From Candidatus Eiseniibacteriota bacterium (GTDB lineage: Bacteria; Eisenbacteria; RBG-16-71-46), in the NCBI GenBank assembly GCA_016215625.1, contig JACRIW010000097.1:1-64000 (forward strand): DNA of 64,000 nucleotides. The letters are read 5' to 3'. This document shows, in pieces, positions 7,800 through 61,481 of the stretch. Each line of letters begins with the position of its first letter. Position 1 is the first letter of the stretch. The notes under the pieces were generated by a model. It was not told the origin of the DNA. It did not search any database and saw nothing but the letters and a program-made list of their open reading frames with translations. A program made the translations under genes and the position numbers.

Positions 7800-8954
7800 T
7801 CAGCCCAGCCCGAGCTTGTCCCGCATCGCCTGATCGCGTGCCGCCTTCTCCTTCTTCATGGCGGCCGCGAGCCGGCTCACGCGCTTGCGGATGTCGGGGA
7901 TGTTGGCCTCGATCGCCGTGCCGAACCTGCGTACGTGCGTGCGCAGCAGCGCGAGCGCCTCGCCGTCGGCGAAGTCGAGGCGGATCGCGTTCAGGTACGC
8001 GCGCGTCGCGTCGCTGTGGCGGCCGACGGCGGCGAGCGCGACGCCGTACACGCGCCAGGTCGCACCCTCGAACGGGTCCATTTCGATCGCATCGCGGGCG
8101 GAGTCGAGCGCCTCCTGCGCGTCGCGCTCGAGGAACACGAGCGAGCGAGCGCGGATGAGCGTGAGCCAGCGCCGCATGGGATAGCTGGGCGGATCGAACG
8201 CCAGCCCGAGGTCGCACTCCTCCACCGCGTCGGCGTAGCCCTGCACGTTGAAGTGCGCCACCGCGCACCGCGCGTGACCGAGCGCCTCGTGCGACGGCGA
8301 GCCCTCCGGTCCGCCGATCGAGACTCCGTCGCCGAACACCGGCGCCGAGCGGCCCGGCCGCGGCTCGATCCGCCGGCGGAACTCGGCGAGGCGCCAGTCG
8401 AGATCCGGCCACGCGACGAGCAGTGCGCCGCGGTGCGCAGCGGCGAGCGCTTCCAGGTGATGCAGCGCGCGCGGATCACCGGGCCCGGCCGTGCACGCGT
8501 GCATGAGGTGCAGCGACGCCTCGGCGTGGCGCCCCTGACCGGCCAGCGCGTTGCCGAGGTTCTTCATCGCGTTGTACCGCAGGCGATCCACGCGCAGCGC
8601 CGCGCGGCAGAAGCGCTCGGCCTGCGCGTGGCGGCCCTGCTGGCCGAGGATGTAGCCCGTGTTGTTGTGGAGGAAGTACGCGGTCTCCTCGTGCACGGGC
8701 TCGAGCGCGAGGCCGGCGGCGAGATGCGCGAGCGCGCGATCGAAGTGCCCCGCGGTCTCGAGCACGCGGCCCGCGTCGAGGCAGCGCGCGGCGCGGACCT
8801 CGGAGTTCTCCGACTTGTCCTCCCACGCTCGCAGCCACAGTTCCGCCATGTCGGGCTCGTTCGACTGCAGGCAGGCGCGCGCCAGGGCCAGCGCGTCGAC
8901 GACGGGCTCGCCAGTGGCGGGATTGGTGCGAGGGCGGCGGGGTTTGCGGGGCAT
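7800..8954 (-). CDS. TPR-repeat protein
   Basis: About 384 residues from ATG 8954 (MPRKPRRPRTNPATGEP); the open frame extends to 9059 but the added N-terminus looks non-coding. No strong ribosome site is visible. Helical TPR pairs recur: AGRVLETAGHFDRALAHLAAGLALEP, NTGYILGQQGRHAQAERFCRAALRVD, NLGNALAGQGRHAEASLHLMHACTAGP and VYGVALAAVGRHSDATRAYLNAIRLD. No signal peptide; the C-terminus is Lys/Arg-rich. TPRs mediate protein binding; the partner is unknown. A similar but diverged TPR gene sits at 13588-14859 in the same island, suggesting related roles. Confidence 0.75.
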   Translation of the reverse strand: MPRKPRRPRTNPATGEPVVDALALARACLQSNEPDMAELWLRAWEDKSENSEVRAARCLDAGRVLETAGHFDRALAHLAAGLALEPVHEETAYFLHNNTGYILGQQGRHAQAERFCRAALRVDRLRYNAMKNLGNALAGQGRHAEASLHLMHACTAGPGDPRALHHLEALAAAHRGALLVAWPDLDWRLAEFRRRIEPRPGRSAPVFGDGVSIGGPEGSPSHEALGHARCAVAHFNVQGYADAVEECDLGLAFDPPSYPMRRWLTLIRARSLVFLERDAQEALDSARDAIEMDPFEGATWRVYGVALAAVGRHSDATRAYLNAIRLDFADGEALALLRTHVRRFGTAIEANIPDIRKRVSRLAAAMKKEKAARDQAMRDKLGLG

Positions 8955-9940: not shown

Positions 9941-10585
9941 TCAACGCACCGGGTCGTCGGACGCTCGTACCGGTGCGGGCATGTTGCTCGCAGTCCGCTC
10001 GAAGGCGGCGCGTAGCTGTGCGTAGGCCACCCACTCGCCACCCAGTTTCGAGAGGCTGCTCGGGGCGATCTTCTTCTGCTTGCCGCACCGTTCGTCGATC
10101 GTGCTCGTGGGGATGACGAGGAACCGCCATTGCGCGAGGTCGAGCGGATCGGCGGCGGGCTTGTCACGATGCGCATGCAGCGCGAACACGAACACGTCGG
10201 ACCAGCGGGCCTGTCGCTTTGAGAACTCGCCTAGCGCGCGCGTCCATCCGGCGCGACGCGCGACCCCGAATGACGGCGCGGAGAGCGACTTCTGCGCCCA
10301 AGCCTGAACGTAGCCGCTGCACTTCACCTCGATGCGCAGGCCATCGGCGGTCTCGAGATCCCATGCGTTCCATTCGTCGCGGACGTCGGTCGCGATGCCG
10401 AGTGCTCGCGCGACGAGGAACTCGGCCATGGCGCCGCGGAGCGTGTTGCCGATCACGTCCGAGCCGCTCCATCGCCAGAACTCGAGAAGGTCGAACCCGG
10501 CAGGCGCAGAGCCCTCGCGGAACGGCTCGCGGCCGTCGAGGCGCGTGAGCGGGAGTGCGGGAAGTTCCTGGGGCAGTCGGGACAT
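9941..10585 (-). CDS. PD-(D/E)XK nuclease-like hypothetical protein
   Basis: 214 residues. The segment GAMAEFLVARALGI (Glu55), NAWDLETADG (Asp76) and LRIEVKCSGYVQAW (Glu86, Lys88) has the order helix-Glu, strand-Asp, strand-E.K expected of the PD-(D/E)XK fold. The rest is unfamiliar, including a basic segment with CGKQKK near residue 168. It lies 20 bases downstream of the DUF91/NucS-like gene on the same strand, so two nuclease-fold proteins are probably co-transcribed. A role in defence or DNA processing is inferred from fold and neighbourhood only. No strong ribosome site is seen at ATG 10585. Confidence 0.6.
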   Translation of the reverse strand: MSRLPQELPALPLTRLDGREPFREGSAPAGFDLLEFWRWSGSDVIGNTLRGAMAEFLVARALGIATDVRDEWNAWDLETADGLRIEVKCSGYVQAWAQKSLSAPSFGVARRAGWTRALGEFSKRQARWSDVFVFALHAHRDKPAADPLDLAQWRFLVIPTSTIDERCGKQKKIAPSSLSKLGGEWVAYAQLRAAFERTASNMPAPVRASDDPVR

Positions 10586-10605: not shown

Positions 10606-11670
10606 TTAAGAGCGCTTCGCAGGCCGCAGGCGGAAGTCCACCTCGTAGAGCATCAGATTGACCGCGGGCGTCATTTCGAGCGCGTAGCGAATCTTGTCGT
10701 CTCCCGAGTGAGAGATGATCAGTCCTTCGACCTGCTCGCCCTTCTCTGCCACATGCTCGCGCACATAGCCCATGTACCGCAGCGCCTGCCCCACCGTGGA
10801 GTCGCTGGATTGCTCGCGTTTGAGCTCCACGACGAGCCAGCGCTTCTCACGTTTGTGGCGCGCCAGAAGATCGATGCGACCGATAGGGGTCGGGTATTCG
10901 TACCCGACGACCTCTCCGTCTTCGGAGTGCAGGACCCAGTCCCGCCCGAGATCGGTGTTGTCCCAGTTGTCGACGAGGAAATCATGGAGGTGGCGTTCGA
11001 GGCCGAACGAGCTCTCGAATTGCGCCTGCGCCTCCCCCGTCACTTCCGGCACCGACTCGGATTCGACGGCAGCATCGACGGAATCAGTACTGACCGCGCG
11101 CCACCAGAGCCCATCAAGGGTCCAGAGGTCCACTTCAAGCTCGCGGGCGACCTCGAGGATCACGCTATTCACTCGGGCATACCTCGCGCCGAGCGTCATG
11201 CCGCGATCAAACTCCGGCCACACCCCCAACTGCTCCATCGCTCCCTGGGAAGTGTTGTTCCACACGCCGTACTTGTCAGGAAAGGCGACGAGCAGCACGG
11301 CGGTCATGATCCCGCGCCCCATGCCAGAGACCGCCTTTGGGCGACCGGGAGCAAGGTCGTTGATCCGCTCGGCAATCGGGCGTGACTCGTCGACGAGCAA
11401 TGCGAGGGCGTTGCGCAGACGTGGCATGTCCGCGCAGACCTCGGGGCCTTTGCGGTGCAGACCGACCCAGTGACGATTGTTGCGAAAGACGAGGAACGAC
11501 TTGAACTCGTCCGCGGTGAGCTTCGGCAGGTTCTCGCTGCGGAAAGTGGGCTGATAGCGCGCCAGCACGCCGTCGCGGTCCGCAATCATGCGCTGCAGCC
11601 CCTCGTGTCGGATCGCTCGACAAGCCCGGAGCTTTCCAAGCGCCTCTTGGAGATTCGAAGCTGGACACAT
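10606..11670 (-). CDS. NucS-like (DUF91) endonuclease-domain protein
   Basis: 354 residues from ATG 11670. The C-terminal third matches the NucS/DUF91 nuclease signature: PIGRIDLLARHK (Asp267), RWLVVELKRE (Glu282, Lys284) and VGQALRYMGYVREH (Gln295, Tyr299), then GLIIS. This is the RecB-like catalytic core of NucS enzymes. The N-terminal 200 residues (with FLVFRNNRHWVGLHRKG and MGRGIMTAVLLVAFPDKYGVWNN) are not the NucS DNA-binding domain, so this is a distinct architecture and not a mismatch-repair NucS. Probably operonic with 9941-10585. Confidence 0.75.
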   Translation of the reverse strand: MCPASNLQEALGKLRACRAIRHEGLQRMIADRDGVLARYQPTFRSENLPKLTADEFKSFLVFRNNRHWVGLHRKGPEVCADMPRLRNALALLVDESRPIAERINDLAPGRPKAVSGMGRGIMTAVLLVAFPDKYGVWNNTSQGAMEQLGVWPEFDRGMTLGARYARVNSVILEVARELEVDLWTLDGLWWRAVSTDSVDAAVESESVPEVTGEAQAQFESSFGLERHLHDFLVDNWDNTDLGRDWVLHSEDGEVVGYEYPTPIGRIDLLARHKREKRWLVVELKREQSSDSTVGQALRYMGYVREHVAEKGEQVEGLIISHSGDDKIRYALEMTPAVNLMLYEVDFRLRPAKRS

Positions 11671-11788: not shown

Positions 11789-12091
11789 TCAAGGCCCCCA
11801 TGTCCCGTGACAGTCCTCGCTCACCAGTTCCGCCTCTCCCCCGCGCGCCAGCCTTCGCGAGCACACCTGGCCTGCGGCGAGTGCGATCCGCCAGGCTTCG
11901 CGACGGCTCACGAACCGGCCGGTCGTCGTCACGAAGCCCTCGCCGCGCTTGCCGAGCAGCCGCCACACGGTGGCGGGCTTGAGCCGCAGCCGCAGCGACG
12001 CCACATGCACCGCCTCCTTATGCGACTGCGCGGTGAACACGCGGCCGCGCAACCGCACGGCCGCCACACGCACCTGCTCGCGCGCGCTCAT
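11789..12091 (-). CDS. Phage-like small protein
   Basis: 100 residues from ATG 12091 (MSAREQVRVAAVRLRGRVF), overlapping the stop of 12088-12672 by ATGA. The pattern AVRLRGRVFTAQSHKEAV then GEGFVTTTGRFVSRREAWRIALAAGQ and a closing SED matches a family of small hypothetical proteins frequent in phage and plasmid genomes (a recalled pattern, not a search). Function unknown. The open frame reaches 12289, but the extension is the shadow of the upstream gene. Confidence 0.7.
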   Translation of the reverse strand: MSAREQVRVAAVRLRGRVFTAQSHKEAVHVASLRLRLKPATVWRLLGKRGEGFVTTTGRFVSRREAWRIALAAGQVCSRRLARGGEAELVSEDCHGTWGP

Positions 12092-12672
12092 CGCACACCT
12101 CCGTTCTCGCGACCGGCCCGCTCGGCCCACGCCGCCCCGCTGCGCCACCACGCGGCGAACGCCGCGAACACAGCGGCTCGCTCGGCGGCGCCCAGCCACA
12201 CGCGCTCGAAGTACGCCGACGGCGCGAAGCCGTCGTCGCGCCCGAGCCCGGCCGACAGCAACAGCGCCCCGACGCGCATGCGGCGCCACTGCGCGAGCGC
12301 GTGACGCGCCGCGGTCATGGCTTCTTCGGAGCGGAGTTCGCGCTGCATCGCGGCCGCCATGCCGTGCGCCTTACGGGTCGTGCTCGCCGCGTGACGGCGG
12401 TGGTCGTCGTACACAGGCAAGTAGGGCGAGCCCCCCTGCGCGTTGAACTCGTCCGCGAGCGCGTGGCAGGCGGCGCAGAAGAGCGCTTCGGCGACGACGC
12501 CCGTGTCGGCGACGGCGTCGGTGCCGACGGGCGCGGCGCCGCAGCAGTGGCACAGGCGTGGCACGCCGCGCTCGGCGGCGACGCGCAGCACGTCGGCGTG
12601 CGTCAGGCGGACTCCTTCGACCAGTTCGGCTCCGCGAACGTGGGAACGGCCGGCGTTCGGTTCGTGCGACAT
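12088..12672 (-). CDS. CxxC zinc-binding hypothetical protein
   Basis: 194 residues from ATG 12672, chosen because AAAGGAG lies 8 nt upstream; the open frame to 12780 runs into the structured element. CHCC (residues 40-43) and CAAC (66-69) form a probable zinc knuckle, followed by HALADEFNAQGGSPYLPVYDDHRRH and an Ala/Arg-rich helical C-terminus ending NGGVR. I do not recognise the family. It is preceded by a SAM-type leader (12733-12840) and followed by the phage-like gene with translational coupling. Confidence 0.65.
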   Translation of the reverse strand: MSHEPNAGRSHVRGAELVEGVRLTHADVLRVAAERGVPRLCHCCGAAPVGTDAVADTGVVAEALFCAACHALADEFNAQGGSPYLPVYDDHRRHAASTTRKAHGMAAAMQRELRSEEAMTAARHALAQWRRMRVGALLLSAGLGRDDGFAPSAYFERVWLGAAERAAVFAAFAAWWRSGAAWAERAGRENGGVR

Positions 12673-12732
12673 GTGAGGAACTCCTTTCGGAAACGTGCTC
12701 GCCATGCGTGGCGTTAGAAACGCTTCCTGTTT

Positions 12733-12840
12733 GTCCGGCACCGTGCCGGACCTCATCCCCGCGGGATTGCGGGAAGGCACCTTCGGGCGTTCGCCCCAGG
12801 TTGCCGGGCCCGCCGCAAAACGGGCGGGCCGCTCGTGATG
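12733..12840 (-). ncRNA. SAM-I/SAM-IV-like riboswitch element A
   Basis: Read on the minus strand: P1 CAUC (12840-12837) pairs with GAUG (12757-12754); AUCACGAGCGG follows; P2 is an 8-bp hairpin GGCCCGCC/GGCGGGCC; then CGGCAACC, a P3 GGGC-gaac-GCCC, GAAGGUGCC, and a P4 CCCGC/GCGGG. A 3' hairpin (GUCCGGC/GCCGGAC, 12733-12751) follows the core. The invariant pieces AUC.(A)GAG, GGCAACC and AAGGUGCC are those of the SAM-I clan; the simple P2 without kink-turn and the extra 3' hairpin look more like SAM-IV or SAM-I/IV. It starts about 14 bases after the stop of 12854-13591, so it is inside a transcription unit. A small UCC-GAAA-GGA hairpin at the ribosome site of 12672 could be the translational output. 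Confidence 0.55.
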
Positions 12841-12853
12841 TGTGGTGGTGCTG

Positions 12854-13591
12854 CTACATGCCGAAGTGTCCGCCCGCCGGCCGGCGCTTGCCTTCGTAGT
12901 TGTCGCGCTCCTCCCGAATCCACTCGCGGCACTTCCGGGCGCCGAGGCGCTCGTAGTAGTCGCCGAGCTGCGGATAGAAGTCGCTCTCGGCCACTGCGAA
13001 GGCGACGGCCTCCTCGGCTTCCATCCAACCCGGGTGGTAGTGCGATTCCCAGTGACGTTCGAGAAGCCCGCGCTGGTACTCCTCGCCGCTCTTCCGCGTG
13101 CTGCTCATGAACTCCACCAGCTCGGCGAGCGTGAGCGGCTGGTCGCTCTCTTCGAACGGCAGCACGAACGGGAACTCCGCCGCGCTCTCGGGATCGTCCT
13201 GGTACTCGTCGACCACCCGATACCCGATCCGCCCCGACGGCAGCCGGCGCGCGCGCACGCTGGTGACGTCGCACATGACCGAGTCGAGCACGACGCGCGC
13301 GATCTCGACTTCGCCGTCCTCCATGTCCGGCAGGTACTCGCCGCCCATGAGCGAGGGATGCAGGTTCGCCATGCCCTGCCGCTGCTCGGCCGTGAGCCTC
13401 GGCGCCAAATAGTCGCCGGGCGGCAGCTCTTCGTCTGGGTTCTCGAGCGCCTTGGCGACCATCGCCCGGCGCACCTGCCCCTGCACCGAGTTGAGCAACA
13501 GCTTCGTCGGGTCGGTCTCCGACCAGTACGACGGACGAAAGCTCATCCGAATCGCCGGCTTCCGCTTGGCCTTCCCACGCTTCTCGCTCAT
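12854..13591 (-). CDS. Hypothetical acidic protein
   Basis: 245 residues from ATG 13591, with AAGGAGG 6 nt upstream and an ATGA overlap with the TPR gene stop; an upstream GTG/ATG at 13615 lies inside the TPR gene. The N-terminus is basic (MSEKRGKAKRKPAIR). The remainder is acidic, with DEYQDDPESAAEF and REERDNYEGKRR. No catalytic motif, membrane segment or known family is recognised. Translational coupling to the TPR protein suggests the two act together. Confidence 0.65.
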   Translation of the reverse strand: MSEKRGKAKRKPAIRMSFRPSYWSETDPTKLLLNSVQGQVRRAMVAKALENPDEELPPGDYLAPRLTAEQRQGMANLHPSLMGGEYLPDMEDGEVEIARVVLDSVMCDVTSVRARRLPSGRIGYRVVDEYQDDPESAAEFPFVLPFEESDQPLTLAELVEFMSSTRKSGEEYQRGLLERHWESHYHPGWMEAEEAVAFAVAESDFYPQLGDYYERLGARKCREWIREERDNYEGKRRPAGGHFGM

Positions 13592-14859
13592 GAGCGACCT
13601 CCTTCTGTTTCCCAAGCCTCGGCCAGCGCTTCGTGCTCCTCAAACGTGAATCTCTTGCCGACGAACTCCGCGTAGCGTTCCCGCTTGGTGCGCATCACCG
13701 CTCGGAACTCCGCGATGTAAGAATCGAGGAACGGCAGGCGCCTCACGGCCTCCGGCCCCTTCCATGCGATCCACCGTTCCAGTGTGCTCTCGCGGGCATT
13801 GACGCTGCCCATGACGATCCAGCCGCGACGCATCGCGTGGAAGAACTCGATCGGGTGCTCTCGCGAGCCGAGCAGTTCCCAGATCAGCTGCCAGCTGTAC
13901 TCGTCGAGCGGATAAGCCTCGACGGCCGCCCTCGCGTAGAGCAGCGCCTCGGCTTCGCGATCCGCCGCCATGAGGCACTGCGCCACCAGCCCTTGCATGA
14001 TCGCGAACAGCCTCGGCTCTTCGTACTCGTACGCCTGCATGCGGTTCAGGTAGCGATCCATCTCGGCCCGCCGCTCCCAGCGCGACATGGCGAGCGCCGC
14101 GTTGCAGCAGCGCGACAGCGCGTCGGTGGGATTGCCGGCCGCGGCGATGTGTTCGTCGGCGAGGACTTCGGCTTCGCGAATGCGACCCGCTTCGAGAAGG
14201 TCTTCGATCATGACTTCGGGCAGCACCGGACCATTGGGCCGACTGACTTTGTCCGGCGTTCCCGGCGCCTGCATGCGCCGGCGTTCGGTGAGCATCGAGA
14301 GTTCGGGCAGCGGCCGGCGCCGCAGCCGACGCACGTGATCGTGCAGTTTTGGGTAGACCGTCCGCAGCAATGCGCCGTGTGTTTCGACCAACCGTTCGAG
14401 CGCCGGCAGCGCGCTTTCGTCGCGGTACACGTTCTCGAGCGCCATGCTGAGCCAGCGGTACGCGTCGAGCGCCTGGCCGAGTCCCGCGTGGGCGATCCCT
14501 CGCTCGCGGATCGCGTCCAGGTGAACCGGTTCGATACGCATGGAGTGCTTGGCGGCTTCGAGCGCCTCGGCATGCCAGCCGAGGCCGTTGAGCACCGCCG
14601 CCTGGTCGGCGAGCAGCTTGTAACGGAGCACCGGGTTCGCGACGCCGTCGGCCAGCGCGGCCGACAGGTGACAGAGTGCTTCCTCGAACTGATCGTGGCC
14701 GCGGAGGAGCGCCGCGCACTGCCTGCGCCGCTCGGCGCGTTTGTCGGAGCTGCGTTCGTCGTTGCAGTACCGGCGAAGGGTCTGGATGCCCGAAGGCATT
14801 CGGCCGGACTTCATCTGGTGCAGCGCGAGGCGCACCAGCAGCGGATTCGAATCGTGCAT
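13588..14859 (-). CDS. TPR-repeat protein under tandem riboswitch-like leader
   Basis: About 423 residues from ATG 14859 (MHDSNPLLVRLALHQMKSGRMPSG), preceded by AAAGGG; the frame remains open to 14949 but upstream is leader RNA. TPR/SEL1-like helices: ECALLRGHDQFEEALCHLSAAL-type repeats near residues 60-85, VLNGLGWHAEALEAAKHSMRIEP, AHAGLGQALDAYRWLSMALENV and CLMAADREAEALLYARAAVEAYP. No signal peptide. Its leader carries two SAM-type aptamers (14926-15226) separated by an intrinsic terminator, so expression is predicted to respond to a ligand. Coupled to 12854-13591 by ATGA. Confidence 0.7.
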   Translation of the reverse strand: MHDSNPLLVRLALHQMKSGRMPSGIQTLRRYCNDERSSDKRAERRRQCAALLRGHDQFEEALCHLSAALADGVANPVLRYKLLADQAAVLNGLGWHAEALEAAKHSMRIEPVHLDAIRERGIAHAGLGQALDAYRWLSMALENVYRDESALPALERLVETHGALLRTVYPKLHDHVRRLRRRPLPELSMLTERRRMQAPGTPDKVSRPNGPVLPEVMIEDLLEAGRIREAEVLADEHIAAAGNPTDALSRCCNAALAMSRWERRAEMDRYLNRMQAYEYEEPRLFAIMQGLVAQCLMAADREAEALLYARAAVEAYPLDEYSWQLIWELLGSREHPIEFFHAMRRGWIVMGSVNARESTLERWIAWKGPEAVRRLPFLDSYIAEFRAVMRTKRERYAEFVGKRFTFEEHEALAEAWETEGGRS

Positions 14860-14925
14860 GTACTGCCCTTTCTTCGGGCGCCGGTGCTGCTGGCGCCTTA
14901 GGAAACGGGCGCGGACACTGTGATT

Positions 14926-15031
14926 GTCCGGTGTATCGCCGGACCGCATCCCCGCGGGAAGCGGGAAGGCACCTTAGGGTGTCCGCCCCAGGTTGCCGGG
15001 CCCGGCGAGTGCTGCCGGGCCGCTCGTGATG
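14926..15031 (-). ncRNA. SAM-I/SAM-IV-like riboswitch element B
   Basis: Same architecture as element A: P1 CAUC (15031-15028) with GAUG (14950-14947), AUCACGAGCGG, P2 GGCCCGGC/GCCGGGCC, CCGGCAACC, a P3 with GGG/CCC, CUAAGGUGCC, P4 CCCGC/GCGGG. A 3' hairpin GUCCGG/CCGGAC lies at 14926-14944. Its 3' strand can alternatively pair downstream (CGGACA with UGUCCG at about 14911-14930), so two exclusive folds are possible. The element lies about 70 bases before the TPR start codon, with a GGCGCC/GGCGCC hairpin between them. Sequence identity to element A is high in loops as well as stems. Confidence 0.6.
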
Positions 15032-15067
15032 TGCTGCGTGCTGTTTGATGCGTGCTGCAGATAACAG

Positions 15068-15102
15068 AAAACCCGCCTGCTTGGAGTCATCAAGAAGACG
15101 GG
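15068..15102 (-). terminator. Intrinsic terminator of element C, switch output
   Basis: Minus-strand stem CCCGUCU/AGGCGGG, extended by inner CUUG/CAAG, followed by UUUUCUGUU. The loop side contains UCUUGAUGAC (15095-15086), perfectly complementary to GUCAUCAAGA (15225-15216), the 5' strand of element C's P1 and J1/2. When P1 forms, the terminator is free to fold; when it does not, that strand can pair with the terminator arm. This is a ligand-OFF layout. Confidence 0.7.
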
Positions 15103-15124
15103 CCGCTGACGTTGTTTGCCGTCT

Positions 15125-15226
15125 GGGGATCGCTCCCCGGCCTCATCGCCGATTTCTCTCGGCGGGCACCTTGGCCGTCTCGCCAGGTTGCCGGGCTTCG
15201 TGCTGCCGAAGCCGCTCTTGATGACG
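15125..15226 (-). ncRNA. SAM-I/SAM-IV-like riboswitch element C
   Basis: P1 UCAUC (near 15224) pairs with GAUGA (15147-15143). AUCAAGAGCGG is an exact match to the SAM-I 5' motif. P2 GGCUUCG/CGAAGCC, CCGGCAACC, P3 UGGC/GCCA, AAGGUGCC, P4 CGCCGA/UCGGCG, then a 3' hairpin GGGGA-gcga-UCCCC (15125-15138). Stems differ in sequence from elements A and B while the conserved loops are kept, i.e. covariation that supports a real RNA. Preceded by a -35/-10 promoter (15232-15260) that would start transcription right at the aptamer. Confidence 0.65.
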
Positions 15227-15231
15227 TGCGG

Positions 15232-15260
15232 AATATATCGGCATCATGGTCGCGAATCAA
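15232..15260 (-). promoter_or_regulatory. Sigma-70-type promoter for tandem riboswitch leader
   Basis: TTGATT (15260-15255), a 17-base spacer, and TATATT (15237-15232) on the minus strand. A start about 7 bases later falls at the first bases of element C. Confidence 0.7.
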
Positions 15261-15322
15261 TAGGTCGGCGGCAGATTGTTCGAGTCTTTGCGGGGAGTAG
15301 ACATTCGTGCGGGAGGTGCGTC

Positions 15323-16180
15323 GTGCCGAGCACGGTGTGGGACGTGTTGAAGAAGCGATACGCGGTGACCGGTGAGATTCGCACGGTGCGTTGGGGCGAG
15401 ACTCCCAAGACACGGGGCACGGGGCTGTACGTGGTGTCGCTGAGTGCAGACCCGCGCTCGCTGCAAGGCTGCCTCCCCGCGGCGCCGATCGACCACTCGG
15501 CGCTCGACGACTGGCTGACGCGTTGCCCCGAGCTTCACCTCGACGGGAAGCGTCCCACAGCGGAGCAGCTCGCCGCGAAGCTGCAGCGATTCTGGTTCTC
15601 CGACGAGGTCGTGCTCTACATGGGGTTGACTGCGGACTCGCTTCGACGCCGGATCACCGCTTACTACAAGACTGCCCTTGGCGCTGCTGGCCCGCACGCA
15701 GGCGGGTATTTCCTCAAGACTCTCTCCTGCCTCGAGCAGTTGCACGTTCACTACGCGGTCGGCGATGGCACCGCAGTCGAAGAACGCCGCGCGCTGCTCG
15801 CGTTCAGCGAGGGATTGTCGGATGAGAGCCGCTCTCGGCTGCGCGGCCCCAGGGACGGGCTCCCGTTCGCGAACATTTGCTGGGCGGCCGGTGGGAAGAA
15901 GGTGCACGGACTGACGGGCACGCGCAGCAGAAAGGGCAAGTCGGTCACGACGAAGCCACAGACCAAGAAGCCGACGCTGCACGCCGAGATGGCGCGCATT
16001 CTCGAGCCTGTGGACGGCGCCTGGTACCCCTGCGAGGCCCTCGCGAAGGACGTGAACGAGGCGAAGCGGTACCGAAAGAAGGATGGATCTGCGGCTTCGC
16101 CGTGGCAGGTCTGGGCGCGGGCGAGGAACTATCCGGAGTTGTTCGAAGTCGCAGCGGGGATGGTGCGGCTGGTCGACTGA
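15323..16180 (+). CDS. GIY-YIG-nuclease-like hypothetical protein
   Basis: 285 residues from GTG 15323, which has GGGAGG 6 nt upstream; the frame is open to 15116 but that region is the riboswitch leader on the other strand. GLYVVSL (residues 34-40), then VLYMGLTADSLRRRITAYYKT (97-117) with the spaced Arg residues, PHAGGYFLKTL and VEERRALLAF (Glu154 region) resemble the GIY-YIG strand-strand-helix order. The C-terminal 80 residues are basic and carry PTLHAEMARILEP, possibly a DNA-binding part. Divergent from the riboswitch-controlled operon and 250 bases before the methyltransferase gene. Could be a nuclease of the same accessory module. Confidence 0.55.
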   Translation: MPSTVWDVLKKRYAVTGEIRTVRWGETPKTRGTGLYVVSLSADPRSLQGCLPAAPIDHSALDDWLTRCPELHLDGKRPTAEQLAAKLQRFWFSDEVVLYMGLTADSLRRRITAYYKTALGAAGPHAGGYFLKTLSCLEQLHVHYAVGDGTAVEERRALLAFSEGLSDESRSRLRGPRDGLPFANICWAAGGKKVHGLTGTRSRKGKSVTTKPQTKKPTLHAEMARILEPVDGAWYPCEALAKDVNEAKRYRKKDGSAASPWQVWARARNYPELFEVAAGMVRLVD

Positions 16181-16431: not shown

Positions 16432-17916
16432 ATGAAGCGAACCACACGACCTCGCCTTAAGGAGTCACTCGCGATCAAGATGGGCGCTCAAGCGGCCAAG
16501 CGTCCGAGCGGGAAACGCACGCGCCCCGCAATGTACGGGGCGCTCACGGGAGTGAGCCTCTTTACGGGAGGTGGAATCGGCGATCTCGCACTCCGCGCCT
16601 GCGGGGTCGAGGTAGTTGTAGCGTCCGAACTGCTCTCTGATCGCGCAGAGGTCTATCGCGCCAACTATCCTGAAACACACATGATTGTTGGAGATATTCG
16701 GACCACCAAACGTGACTTGTTAAAGCTGGCACAGAAGCGCCTCGACGGCCGCACTCTCGATGTACTTTTTGCAACCCCCCCCTGCCAGGGAATGTCGCGC
16801 AATGGGCGCGGCAAGCTTCTCAATGGCATTCGTTCTGGGATCAAACCCAAGTTCGACGAACGCAATGGCCTTGCACTTGAGGCCGTCGAAATTGCCCTGA
16901 AGCTCGACCCAAAGCTTATCGTATTCGAAAATGTCCCTGAAATGGAGTTCACACTCGTCGAACGATCCGACGGCAGCGTTGGCGGGCTATTGGAGACCAT
17001 TGCCGAGCGACTTGCCCCTCGCTATAGCGGTCGATGGGAAGTCGTTGAGTTCGCTGACTACGGCGTCCCGCAGCGACGCCAGCGACTTATAACAATCTTC
17101 TCACGCGTGGAGCCATCCAAGCAGCTTGCGCAACGCGGCGCCAGCCTCTTGCCACCACGAACGCATTCCTCGTCAGCGACGATCTTCACGAAACCGTGGA
17201 TAACGGTTGACGACGTGCTCTCTGAAATACCATCACTGGATGCTACGTCCAAGAAATCCGCGGAACATCCGTCGCTCCCCTTTCACCGCGTCCCCGTACT
17301 TGATCAAGACAAGTACTTCTGGGTTAGCAACACGCCGCCCGGCAAGGGGGCTTTCGACAATCAGTGCGCGAATCCAAAGTGCCGCTTTGATGGCAATCCC
17401 ACCCACAGTTCCAAGCACGACCTTCACGGCATCAATCGCGCTAGCAAGGAAACGCCGGTTCGATGTCTCAGATGCGGGGAGCTATTGCCGAGGCCATGGG
17501 TTGTCGAGGGCGGAACACACCGCCTGATGTCAGGCTTTACGAGTGCATACAAGCGCATGCGCGGCGACCTGCCCGCGAGTGCGCTCACGAGGAACCTCTC
17601 TTACGCTTGTTCGGATCAGAAGCTTCATCCTCGAGAACACCGCGTGCTCTCGCTACACGAGGCCCTGCTCCTTCACACCGTCTCGGACTATCACTTCGAC
17701 TGGCGGCGTGCAGATCAGAAGCAAGTGTCCGACAAGACGATCAGGGAGATTATTGGGGAGAGCATTCCGCCGCGCGGCTTGCAGAGGATCTTCGCATATG
17801 TGCTCGAGCTGCAAGGTCTCGCTCACAGCGAATCGCGCGCGCGGGGGGCGCGGTCGACTTCCGTCAAGCGCAGTGGAGGCTCGCGGATGAGAAAAGCAGC
17901 CGCAGGCACAAACTGA
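16432..17916 (+). CDS. DNA (cytosine-5) methyltransferase of type II R-M system
   Basis: 494 residues, ATG with GAGGAAT upstream. C5-MTase motifs are in order: motif I SLFTGGGIGD (42-51), motif IV TPPCQGMSRNG with catalytic Cys118, motif VI FENVPE (165-170), motif VIII QRRQRLI (214-220). The target-recognition region contains an unusual four-cysteine insert (CANPKC and CLRCGE, around 315-365), a likely zinc ribbon. Uses S-adenosylmethionine to make 5-methylcytosine. It converges on the restriction endonuclease gene with 5 bases between the stops. Base composition is visibly less GC-rich than the neighbourhood, suggesting recent transfer. Confidence 0.92.
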   Translation: MKRTTRPRLKESLAIKMGAQAAKRPSGKRTRPAMYGALTGVSLFTGGGIGDLALRACGVEVVVASELLSDRAEVYRANYPETHMIVGDIRTTKRDLLKLAQKRLDGRTLDVLFATPPCQGMSRNGRGKLLNGIRSGIKPKFDERNGLALEAVEIALKLDPKLIVFENVPEMEFTLVERSDGSVGGLLETIAERLAPRYSGRWEVVEFADYGVPQRRQRLITIFSRVEPSKQLAQRGASLLPPRTHSSSATIFTKPWITVDDVLSEIPSLDATSKKSAEHPSLPFHRVPVLDQDKYFWVSNTPPGKGAFDNQCANPKCRFDGNPTHSSKHDLHGINRASKETPVRCLRCGELLPRPWVVEGGTHRLMSGFTSAYKRMRGDLPASALTRNLSYACSDQKLHPREHRVLSLHEALLLHTVSDYHFDWRRADQKQVSDKTIREIIGESIPPRGLQRIFAYVLELQGLAHSESRARGARSTSVKRSGGSRMRKAAAGTN

Positions 17917-17921
17917 GATGG

Positions 17922-18707
17922 TCAGTGGCCATTGGCGTCGAGGGCGCCTTCGAGAAGACGTCCGCCATTCCGCTCATCAAAGAACTTCGCGTACGGTCGG
18001 GAGTTCAGGAGCACAACCCAACCTTCATACATCTTTCGCACGCCATCCCTGGTCATGATCGAGACCGAAGTCGTCCTACCTCCGCCCTCACGCGGCTGTA
18101 CAATGCGCCCCCAATCCGCTTCTTGGAGATCGGATCGATAGAACACGGCTACGATTGCCGGGCTGCCGTCAATGAAGTCCCACACAAGTCCAAACAACCG
18201 ATTGGTTTCTCTATGGTGGGCCTTCCAGTCATAGGCTGTTAGGCAATGGACCCTCTGGTCTCCCATATCAGGCTTTGGGAAGCCGCGCGCAATACACTGC
18301 GCGGGGGTCGGCACCGCCCCACATGTGGCTTTGACCTCAAATCCGCCGGGCCCGAAGGGACTAAATGGCGCCTTCTCTCTAAGCCTTCCGCTCAGGCGCG
18401 CCCATTCTCGTGCGCCTTCAGCATCCATCACGAGGAGATCCGGGTAGCCGTCCTGATGCGGGTTCTTTCGTAGAAGGTCCGAGTGCTCGAGAATCATCGC
18501 TGCGGCGAACACTTCACCAACAAACGCACTGAGGTTGCGCATTCCCAAGAGCGCGAAGACGTCTACCTCAAAGTCTGCTAGTTGCCGAATAAGCACACGC
18601 GTTCGGTGAACGGCTCTCTCGATGCTGTCAGATTGCAGCGTGAACCTTCGCGGTCCGCGGACTACCATTTGCGGATTGCAGGTGTACTCAAGCCGTCGGT
18701 TAGGCAT
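17922..18707 (-). CDS. Type II restriction endonuclease (PD-(D/E)XK)
   Basis: About 261 residues from ATG 18707, which overlaps the end of the controller gene by 8 bases; the longer frame to 18881 is the shadow of that gene. The catalytic pattern is clear: HQDGYPDLLVMD (Asp90) and GGFEVKATCG (Glu124, Lys126), with a helix Glu in SAFVGEVFAAA (Glu64). The middle region has DMGDQRVHCLTAYDWKAHHR. Function as the cognate nuclease is inferred from its position: C-protein and nuclease in one operon, convergent with the C5 methyltransferase. The target site cannot be read from the sequence. Confidence 0.8.
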   Translation of the reverse strand: MPNRRLEYTCNPQMVVRGPRRFTLQSDSIERAVHRTRVLIRQLADFEVDVFALLGMRNLSAFVGEVFAAAMILEHSDLLRKNPHQDGYPDLLVMDAEGAREWARLSGRLREKAPFSPFGPGGFEVKATCGAVPTPAQCIARGFPKPDMGDQRVHCLTAYDWKAHHRETNRLFGLVWDFIDGSPAIVAVFYRSDLQEADWGRIVQPREGGGRTTSVSIMTRDGVRKMYEGWVVLLNSRPYAKFFDERNGGRLLEGALDANGH

Positions 18708-18969
18708 GACGTGTCCGAGGCGAGTACCTGGCGGAGCTTCGGGCGCGAATACTTGAGGGTGGAGCCTGGAACAACATCGAGACGGGGAGCTCAAGAGCTG
18801 CAGCCAATGCACAAATATTCTTGAGGCCGATGTTGCGCTCGCCCCGTTCAACACCACCGACATAGGTGCGATGGAGGCCACTCAGCTCCGCGAGGGCTTC
18901 TTGCGAGAGCCCCTTGCGAGTCCGCAACTCCCGCACCCTCTTCCCAAACGCTCTTAGTTCACTGTCCAT
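18700..18969 (-). CDS. XRE-family controller (C) protein of R-M system
   Basis: 89 residues. A compact HTH occupies residues 6-65 (FGKRVRELRTRKGLSQEALAELSGLHRTYVGGVERGERN, then KNICALAAALELPVSMLF), the typical form of C proteins, which delay nuclease expression until the host is methylated. It precedes and overlaps the endonuclease gene. The C-terminal 20 residues (PPSSIRARSSARYSPRTRHA) extend beyond the usual ~75-80 residues. Confidence 0.85.
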   Translation of the reverse strand: MDSELRAFGKRVRELRTRKGLSQEALAELSGLHRTYVGGVERGERNIGLKNICALAAALELPVSMLFQAPPSSIRARSSARYSPRTRHA

Positions 18970-27807: not shown

Positions 27808-28226
27808 CGATGGCTGGCTGCGAGCACGTGCGAGCGGGTACTCGCAGCAGCGAGCAGCAGCCAGCGTCGAGCGTCGATCGGAGACCGCGAACGCCCTCCG
27901 CTCCCCCGCCAAACGTGCCGCCCCGGTCAAATCCCCCGAACTTTCTTTCGTGCGCGAGCAGCCGCCCTCATCGCCCATCGCCCGGGAAAAAACCTTCAAA
28001 GCGTGCGCCACACGCAACTTGACCCCGAAATCGCTCGCCGCGACGCCGGGGATCGGCCCACGACCTCACGCGAATGAGTCCTATCTATTTCCCTCGAACT
28101 CACCGATAGTCCATGCGGTCACCGGATGAACTCCGGGGGCAACGGTCACAGAGACCGGACGTCGCCGCGGCGGTTATCGCGGCAATCAGTGCGGACCTTC
28201 GGGTCCGGGTACATCAGGAGTTTCAA
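27808..28226. other. Intergenic with cspA 5' leader
   Basis: No gene is supported in this 419-base stretch. A hairpin CGGACC-TTCG-GGTCCG (28192-28207) with a UUCG tetraloop lies 13 bases before the cspA ribosome site, part of a long untranslated leader typical of cold-shock genes. Confidence 0.55.
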
Positions 28227-28427
28227 GTGGCGAGTGGCACCGTGAAGTGGTTCAACGAAGCCAAGGGCTTCGGTTTCCTTTCGCAGGCGGATGGCGAAGA
28301 CGTGTTCGTGCATTTCTCCGCGATCGCCGGCGACGGCTTCAAGACCCTCGCCGAAGGCGAAGCGGTCGAGTTCGAAGTCACGCGTGGCCCGAAGGGCCTG
28401 CAGGCTGCGAACGTTCGCAAGGCCTAG
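28227..28427 (+). CDS. cspA: Cold-shock protein
   Basis: 66 residues from GTG 28227, with AGGAG 7-8 nt upstream; upstream in-frame codons belong to the leader. The OB-fold signature is intact: [14 protein letters not shown] (RNP-1 KGFGF) and DVFVHFSAI (RNP-2), ending [13 protein letters not shown]. Binds single-stranded RNA/DNA as a chaperone. Single gene with its own strong terminator. Confidence 0.95.
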
Positions 28428-28450
28428 TCACTCGCAAGGGTGAGTAGAAA

Positions 28451-28478
28451 AGGGCGGCGTCCTCACGGACGCCGCCCT
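28451..28478. terminator. Strong bidirectional terminator
   Basis: 12-bp perfect stem agggcggcgtcc/ggacgccgccct with a tcac loop, followed by ttcgtatttt on the plus strand and ttttct on the minus strand. Serves cspA and the cytochrome gene. Confidence 0.85.
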
Positions 28479-28508
28479 TCGTATTTTGCCCGCGTGTCGC
28501 TCCCCCGG

Positions 28509-61140: not shown

Positions 61141-61481
61141 CGAAGACTCTCCTGCTCGGAGGGTGAGGCCGGTGCGGCCGGCCGGCGCGGCGACTTGCCT
61201 GACCGGGAACTTCGCAGGCCCGTGCGCGGCCGGGGATGACGCTCGTCATACGCGCACGAGATTTCCGGTCCACCCCGGCGCGGAATCCGCTATCGTGCCG
61301 GCCGGGTCGGCAGTTCACCCAGGCGTCGCCGCGCGAGCCTCGCTCGCGAGCTCAACCTGCCATCTCCCATCGGCCCATCGAGTCGCACCACGTGTGCGGC
61401 GCGCCCGGCCGGCAAGTCGGCGACCCCCGGCAGCCTTCTTTCGAAGGCCGCGAGCGCGCGTCACGCAGACGAGGTTGCGCC
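61141..61481. other. Divergent promoter region
   Basis: 341 bases between hemerythrin and DUF2087 genes. No gene or strong structure is seen. The frame that is open from 61236 has no ribosome site and non-coding composition. Confidence 0.4.

Follow-up and report, generated by a model that had tools for sequence, protein, structure and literature searches.

S-adenosylmethionine (SAM) riboswitches are best known for the feedback control of methionine and SAM metabolism. In the window (the whole stretch of 64,000 nucleotides analysed here) an element of this type stands instead before accessory genes that lie beside defence genes, which raises the question of what this RNA is, how it would switch and what it might do there. 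A sequence-only reading had proposed a promoter, a SAM-type aptamer with a four-stem fold and a U-tailed terminator whose arm can pair with the 5′ strand of P1, together forming a ligand-OFF switch over a TPR gene. We call this aptamer C and two further ones B and A; the features of the locus are collected in Table 1.

Table 1. Features of the three-aptamer locus and its neighbours (window coordinates)
Feature	Position	Strand	Basis
Promoter, sigma-70 type: TTGATT (15260-15255), spacer 17, TATATT (15237-15232)	15232..15260	-	promoter scan
Aptamer C, SAM-I/IV class	15102..15229	-	RF01725 full length 1-99, 48.8 bits vs gathering 41.1 (cmscan)
P1 5′ strand + J1/2, GUCAUCAAGA, antiterminator 5′ half	15216..15225	-	exact complement of 15095-15086
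P4 hairpin GCCGA/UCGGC	15148..15163	-	sequence and aptamer fold
P1 3′ strand GAUGA, rival of the terminator arm for the P1 5′ strand	15143..15147	-	cmscan alignment
Pseudoknot 3′ tail strand CGUC, partner of P3 loop GACG (15179-15176)	15108..15111	-	sequence; homologue covariation
Intrinsic terminator, hairpin and U-tract	about 15068..15103	-	-16.6 kcal/mol, then UUUU
UCUUGAUGAC, terminator 5′ arm/loop, antiterminator 3′ half	15086..15095	-	complementarity and folding
Aptamer B, SAM-I/IV class, in tandem after the terminator, just before the TPR gene	14910..15037	-	RF01725 40.8 bits, E 0.0037, just under gathering 41.1
TPR protein, 423 aa, first operon gene	13588..14859	-	Pfam TPR_9/TPR_14, weak
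245-aa protein, second gene; start overlaps TPR stop (ATGA)	12854..13591	-	no Pfam, NCBIfam or PADLOC family above cut-off
Aptamer A, SAM-I/IV class, between second and third genes	12717..12846	-	RF01725 38.7 bits, E 0.011, under gathering 41.1
194-aa protein with CxxC/CxxC motif, third gene	12088..12672	-	no Pfam or PADLOC family; motif from sequence
PDC-S02 candidate defence nuclease, NucS-like C-terminal domain	10606..11670	-	PADLOC E 5e-50
C5 methyltransferase, type II restriction-modification	16432..17916	+	PADLOC MTase_II E 1e-45
Endonuclease, type II restriction-modification	17922..18881	-	PADLOC REase_II E 2e-62
Control protein, type II restriction-modification	18700..18969	-	PADLOC Control_protein E 3e-24

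A cmscan against the Rfam SAM models, suggested beforehand as a check, matched aptamer C to the SAM-I/IV class above the gathering score (E 6e-5 in the window), and AUCAAGAGCGG, GGCAACC and AAGGUGCC all lie inside this single covariance-model match. The aptamer consists of P1, P2, P3, P4, P5 and a pseudoknot between the P3 loop and the tail; the proposed SAM-type aptamer stands, but its four-stem fold had left out the P5 hairpin and the GACG/CGUC pseudoknot. The core blocks AUCANGAG, GGCAACC, AAGGUGC and GAUG are present in copies C, B and A, and the P2 hairpin is uninterrupted in all three, an undivided P2 being a SAM-I/IV trait. The published definition of the class requires an undivided P2, a P4, and a P5 with a P3-loop-to-3′-tail pseudoknot (PMC6890682; PMC2864571), and each copy has all of these. 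Aptamer C thus shares with SAM-I/IV (RF01725; Weinberg et al., 2010, PMC2864571; compared in PMC6890682) the core, the undivided P2, P3, P4, P5 and the pseudoknot. The SAM-I model (S-box, RF00162) gave only 27.2, 23.6 and 22.7 bits for the three copies against a gathering score of 44.4; SAM-I shares the ligand-binding core and the SAM-OFF attenuation logic, but has an internal loop or kink-turn in P2 and no P5/tail pseudoknot, the opposite of the window copies. SAM-IV (RF00634) has P5 and the P3-loop/tail pseudoknot in common with them, whereas it lacks P4 and its P2 is divided, with a second pseudoknot (PMC6890682). Judged by its sequence, aptamer C is a genuine RNA of the known SAM-I/IV class, with SAM as its presumed ligand. 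A search of the window with the core pattern gave exactly three matches, with none expected by chance, and the rest of the 4.2-Mb Candidatus Eisenbacteria genome holds no further SAM-I/IV match. Elsewhere in the window we saw a COG3860 RNA motif at 61304-61362 (+) with 63.5 bits (cut-off 42.5), and matches of the cspA thermoregulator model at 28190-28481 (+), which were under the cut-off, lie over a cold-shock-type coding region and are probably driven by its coding sequence.

Compensatory changes in the stems of homologues had been set as a test in advance, and they were found in the outer pair of P1, in P2, in the P3 tip and in P4, as well as in P5 and the pseudoknot. When 36 loci drawn from several phyla were aligned, the structure including the pseudoknot was paired in 94.3% of cells, with 17 pairs changed on both sides and a covariation of 0.291, compared with 0.132 for shuffled and at most 0.094 for slid alignments. 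The pseudoknot was 92% paired and had two-sided changes at four of its five pairs. The search pattern had fixed the core columns, so the evidence from covariation lies in the outer pair of P1, in P2, P4 and P5, in the tip of P3 and in the pseudoknot.

The proposed promoter is indeed present and is the sole promoter-like site within 12.5-15.5 kb, where 0.2 are expected. P1 starts 6 nt downstream of the -10 box, and the predicted transcript start (about 15225) is the first base of P1. The U-tailed terminator was likewise confirmed, its hairpin strands being GCCCGUCUUCUUG...CAAGCAGGCGGGUUUU. The first 10 nt of the predicted RNA, GUCAUCAAGA, are the exact complement of UCUUGAUGAC, as had been claimed; when the 76 nt that follow P1 were shuffled 20,000 times with dinucleotides preserved, no such 10-nt run arose, and complementarity to the P1 strand reached 9 nt at most. 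Folded without constraints, the 166-nt leader took the antiterminator as its minimum-energy structure (-80.4 kcal/mol, pair probabilities near 1). With P1 enforced the terminator formed, at -76.9 kcal/mol, which is 3.5 kcal/mol worse than the antiterminator in Vienna energies that leave out the pseudoknot and co-transcriptional kinetics; SAM binding plus the pseudoknot could close a gap of this size. In folds of growing transcripts the antiterminator was complete before the 3′ arm of the terminator had been made. The computed antiterminator and terminator are mutually exclusive and P1 takes part in the exchange, as in an attenuator.

The same platform, in which the terminator arm can pair with the 5′ strand of P1, was found in Eisenbacteria loci L010 and L039 (UCUUGGUGAC and UCUUGGUGA) and in Acidobacteriota, at L015 and L032 (metK) and at L024, L036 and L106 (methionine synthase). 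Inspection by eye added a shorter, 6-nt match in L086, between the P1 strand UGCAUC and its own terminator loop GAUGCA. The P1-complementary arm always follows P1 by about 40-51 nt in the listed loci. Position 10, in J1/2, and its terminator-arm partner vary in concert, from A-U (window and L010) to G-C (L015, L032) and C-G (L106); read from these sequences, this is covariation of the alternative pairing itself. When P1 strands were swapped among platform loci, cognate strands paired more stably than the foreign average by 2-9 kcal/mol, and foreign strands at times paired as well as the cognate one because the strand core is shared. The antiterminator of SAM-I riboswitches usually takes the 3′ strand of P1. 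The metK and metH loci tie the 5′-strand platform to genuine SAM genes: these riboswitches, of Thermoanaerobaculia-type Acidobacteriota (L015, L032, L024, L036; also L106), have the same expression platform as the window's and control genes of SAM and methionine synthesis, unlike the window's. Most other matches of the core pattern also precede metX, metK, metH or related genes (classified by eye), as do most of the other SAM-I/IV riboswitches retrieved, whereas in the window three aptamers stand before TPR and other genes in a defence island.

Closer relatives of the unit were found within the genus. Their promoters read TTGACG-17-CATATT (L005/L006) and TTGACG-17-CAAGTT (L004), each 6 nt before P1 (spacing by eye). 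A sister genome, G021, carries the promoter-aptamer-terminator-TPR unit twice, with a homologous TPR gene each time, one copy beside an NYN gene and the other beside DarT/DarG, and its islands also hold homologues (by eye) of the window genes 15230-16180 and 9941-10585. The two copies (L005/L010 and L006/L039) are near-identical from promoter through riboswitch to TPR gene. Their upstream sequences are unrelated (NYN in one, DarTG in the other) and the likeness sets in just before the -35 box, as in a mobile cassette; each contig ends within the TPR gene. The riboswitch of a third species in the genus (L004/L086) lies ahead of a lone 126-aa protein without assigned function. A SAM-I match in G021 (L121) was sub-threshold and inside coding sequence, and we dismissed it as chance.

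Aptamers B and A were recovered by a permissive scan, and some of the metK and metH aptamers retrieved likewise failed to list above the cut-off. The pseudoknot of aptamer B, GCGGACA/UGUCCGC, forms a duplex of -11.2 kcal/mol; that of aptamer A, which starts 8 nt after the 245-aa gene, is GAACGC/GCGUUU. In folding of aptamer A, reserving the pseudoknot tail left UUUCC free to mask the Shine-Dalgarno sequence, and otherwise the tail paired with the UUUCC stretch, which makes a translational OFF design plausible. The Shine-Dalgarno sequence downstream of aptamer B was sequestered with or without the pseudoknot in simple folding. Aptamers B and A probably add translational control within what would be one transcript. 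SAM pairs acting on transcription and then on translation are described in the portion of a tandem-riboswitch survey available to us (PMC9481103). In these bi-mechanism tandems (SAM-II/SAM-V; SAM-II with SAM-I/IV) the terminator aptamer comes first and the second lies near the ribosome-binding site of the same gene, as here; that portion discusses sulphur-metabolism genes and lists no tandem of SAM-I/IV with SAM-I/IV, whereas the window adds a third aptamer before a later gene.

Aptamer C had been read as a single aptamer over a TPR gene. That gene does follow, but C is the first of three aptamers over the TPR, 245-aa and 194-aa genes, which form an apparent operon with a presumed single transcript. 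The absence of a methionine link was borne out: no methionine or SAM gene lies under aptamer C, B or A, the genes encoding the TPR protein and two proteins without a fitting family in Pfam, NCBIfam or PADLOC, in a defence island. None of the three operon proteins matched a described defence family in the PADLOC scan, whose matches fell only among the neighbours (Table 1); an NYN protein and an RtcR-type regulator also lie nearby. The TPR protein is homologous to a second one, at 7800-8954, and to the riboswitch-led TPR proteins of G021. This second TPR gene (minus strand) has 42% identity to the riboswitch-led TPR of the sister species, to which it is closer than to the riboswitch-led TPR of the window, and no SAM-I/IV match adjoins it. 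Around the non-metabolic riboswitch loci PADLOC found complete systems (DarTG, type II restriction-modification with control protein, PDC-S02). Since control loci with methionine genes also gave methylase and helicase matches, the enrichment of defence genes is suggestive, not proven.

The 245-aa family was found elsewhere only in two Pirellula-type genomes, both with the order aptamer, 165-aa protein, 245-aa relative, and a SAM aptamer precedes it in all three genomes in which it was seen. It was found in none of the 46 other genomes of the phylum and in one of 398 genomes of the class of the planctomycete relative, and had no match in viral contigs, phage records or plasmid records; nor did the TPR protein match in plasmids, or the aptamer core pattern in viral contigs. 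Because the aptamer pattern itself led to these loci, the link is notable through the rarity of the gene in broad samples. The predicted structure of the 245-aa protein (pLDDT 44) was too poor for use. SAM-I/IV-like aptamers precede a 165-aa protein at four Pirellula-type loci, L085:742-2113, L065:5000-5961, L016 and L057; L085 and L065 carry the 245-aa relative, and L016 and L057, which are without it, look decayed. Near L065 are a tRNA, an integrase fragment and a TacA/GNAT toxin-antitoxin pair. SAM or SAM-I/IV aptamers also stand before other small proteins without assigned function, two of them with CxxC motifs, at L017, L023 and L087 (in Bryobacteraceae, Gimesia and another genome).

The energies of antiterminator and P1, together with the covarying homologous platforms, indicate that the element is most likely a SAM-I/IV riboswitch acting as a SAM-OFF transcription attenuator, to which we give a probability of roughly 0.86; SAM as the ligand and termination in vivo are what we infer from these models. 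They support the ligand-OFF logic through the 5′ strand of P1 that had been proposed, and its direction follows from the anatomy. RNA polymerase would start at the first base of P1. When SAM is scarce, the 5′ 10 nt of the RNA would pair with the 5′ arm of the terminator, the terminator would not form and transcription would read through into the operon. At high SAM, P1 would be locked by the ligand together with the P3-loop pseudoknot, leaving the 5′ strand of P1 unavailable, so that the terminator would form and the operon would be off.

Other explanations of the locus fare less well. Recombination might have brought the leader here from a methionine gene, and its present contribution might be just a promoter and a leaky terminator, without a response to SAM that selection maintains. 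The near-identical platforms before metK and metH in Acidobacteriota, the accessory nature of the region and the Pirellula loci that keep the aptamer while downstream genes decay would all fit such a history. We nevertheless regard it as unlikely: the three aptamers differ in sequence and each retains the core, P4, P5 and a complementary pair of pseudoknot strands of its own, the antiterminator pairs without a mismatch, and the link to the 245-aa gene in two phyla, with aptamers of different sub-type, would not be expected under neutral hitch-hiking. It is also quite improbable that the aptamer derives from SAM-I/IV but has changed its ligand, for example to SAH, a polyamine or another SAM derivative, with the same switch mechanics. 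A changed ligand would account for the controlled genes having no methionine link, and there is a precedent in a SAM-I variant that switched to spermidine and controls different genes (PMC10853860). Those spermidine variants, however, carry changes in J1/2 and in the internal loop of P3 (PMC10853860), whereas the core here (AUCANGAG, GGCAACC, AAGGUGC, GAUG) is identical to that of metX, metK and metH aptamers, in a comparison restricted to sequences sharing the core that the pattern had fixed, and aptamers B and A have P3-loop/tail pairing of the standard type. The presence of AUCACGAG rather than AUCAAGAG had suggested a ligand variant, an idea that we dropped given how commonly metX aptamers carry AUCACGAG.

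A switch of opposite sign, in which SAM binding favours read-through, is very improbable. We found nothing for it; once P1 forms, the terminator arm is released, the antiterminator uses up the 5′ strand of P1, and SAM-I riboswitches are usually OFF switches (PMC9481103; PMC10853860). A chance fold, or an artefact of a GC-rich genome, could be suspected from the GC-rich flank with its many stable hairpins, but is refuted by the full-length model match, the copies in the same genus, the strong covariation and the expectation of zero chance matches to the core pattern.

The RNA class is already known, and its use on mobile, non-metabolic genes appears undescribed: in the literature searched, no paper joined an S-adenosylmethionine riboswitch with anti-phage defense. 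Three SAM-I/IV aptamers over mobile, non-metabolic genes are an unusual variant system. If the switch is a SAM-OFF attenuator, an accessory, horizontally moving gene set of a defence island should be turned on by low SAM. Tentatively, and with considerable doubt, one may picture a SAM-depletion sensor of a mobile defence or safety module, in which low SAM releases the operon for anti-phage action or for protecting the host from self-restriction. SAM might fall because a phage SAM lyase blunts restriction-modification, or because methyl donors run short; phage SAM lyases are a known counter-defence (PMC7877911). Release at low SAM beside a restriction-modification system would fit either a response to such a lyase or protection from self-restriction when methylation fails. 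For SAM-I/IV, the locus offers a clear case of an expression platform built on the 5′ strand of P1. If the SAM-dependent release is true, a metabolite-sensing RNA would join the triggers of mobile and defence genes, with SAM depletion as the signal.
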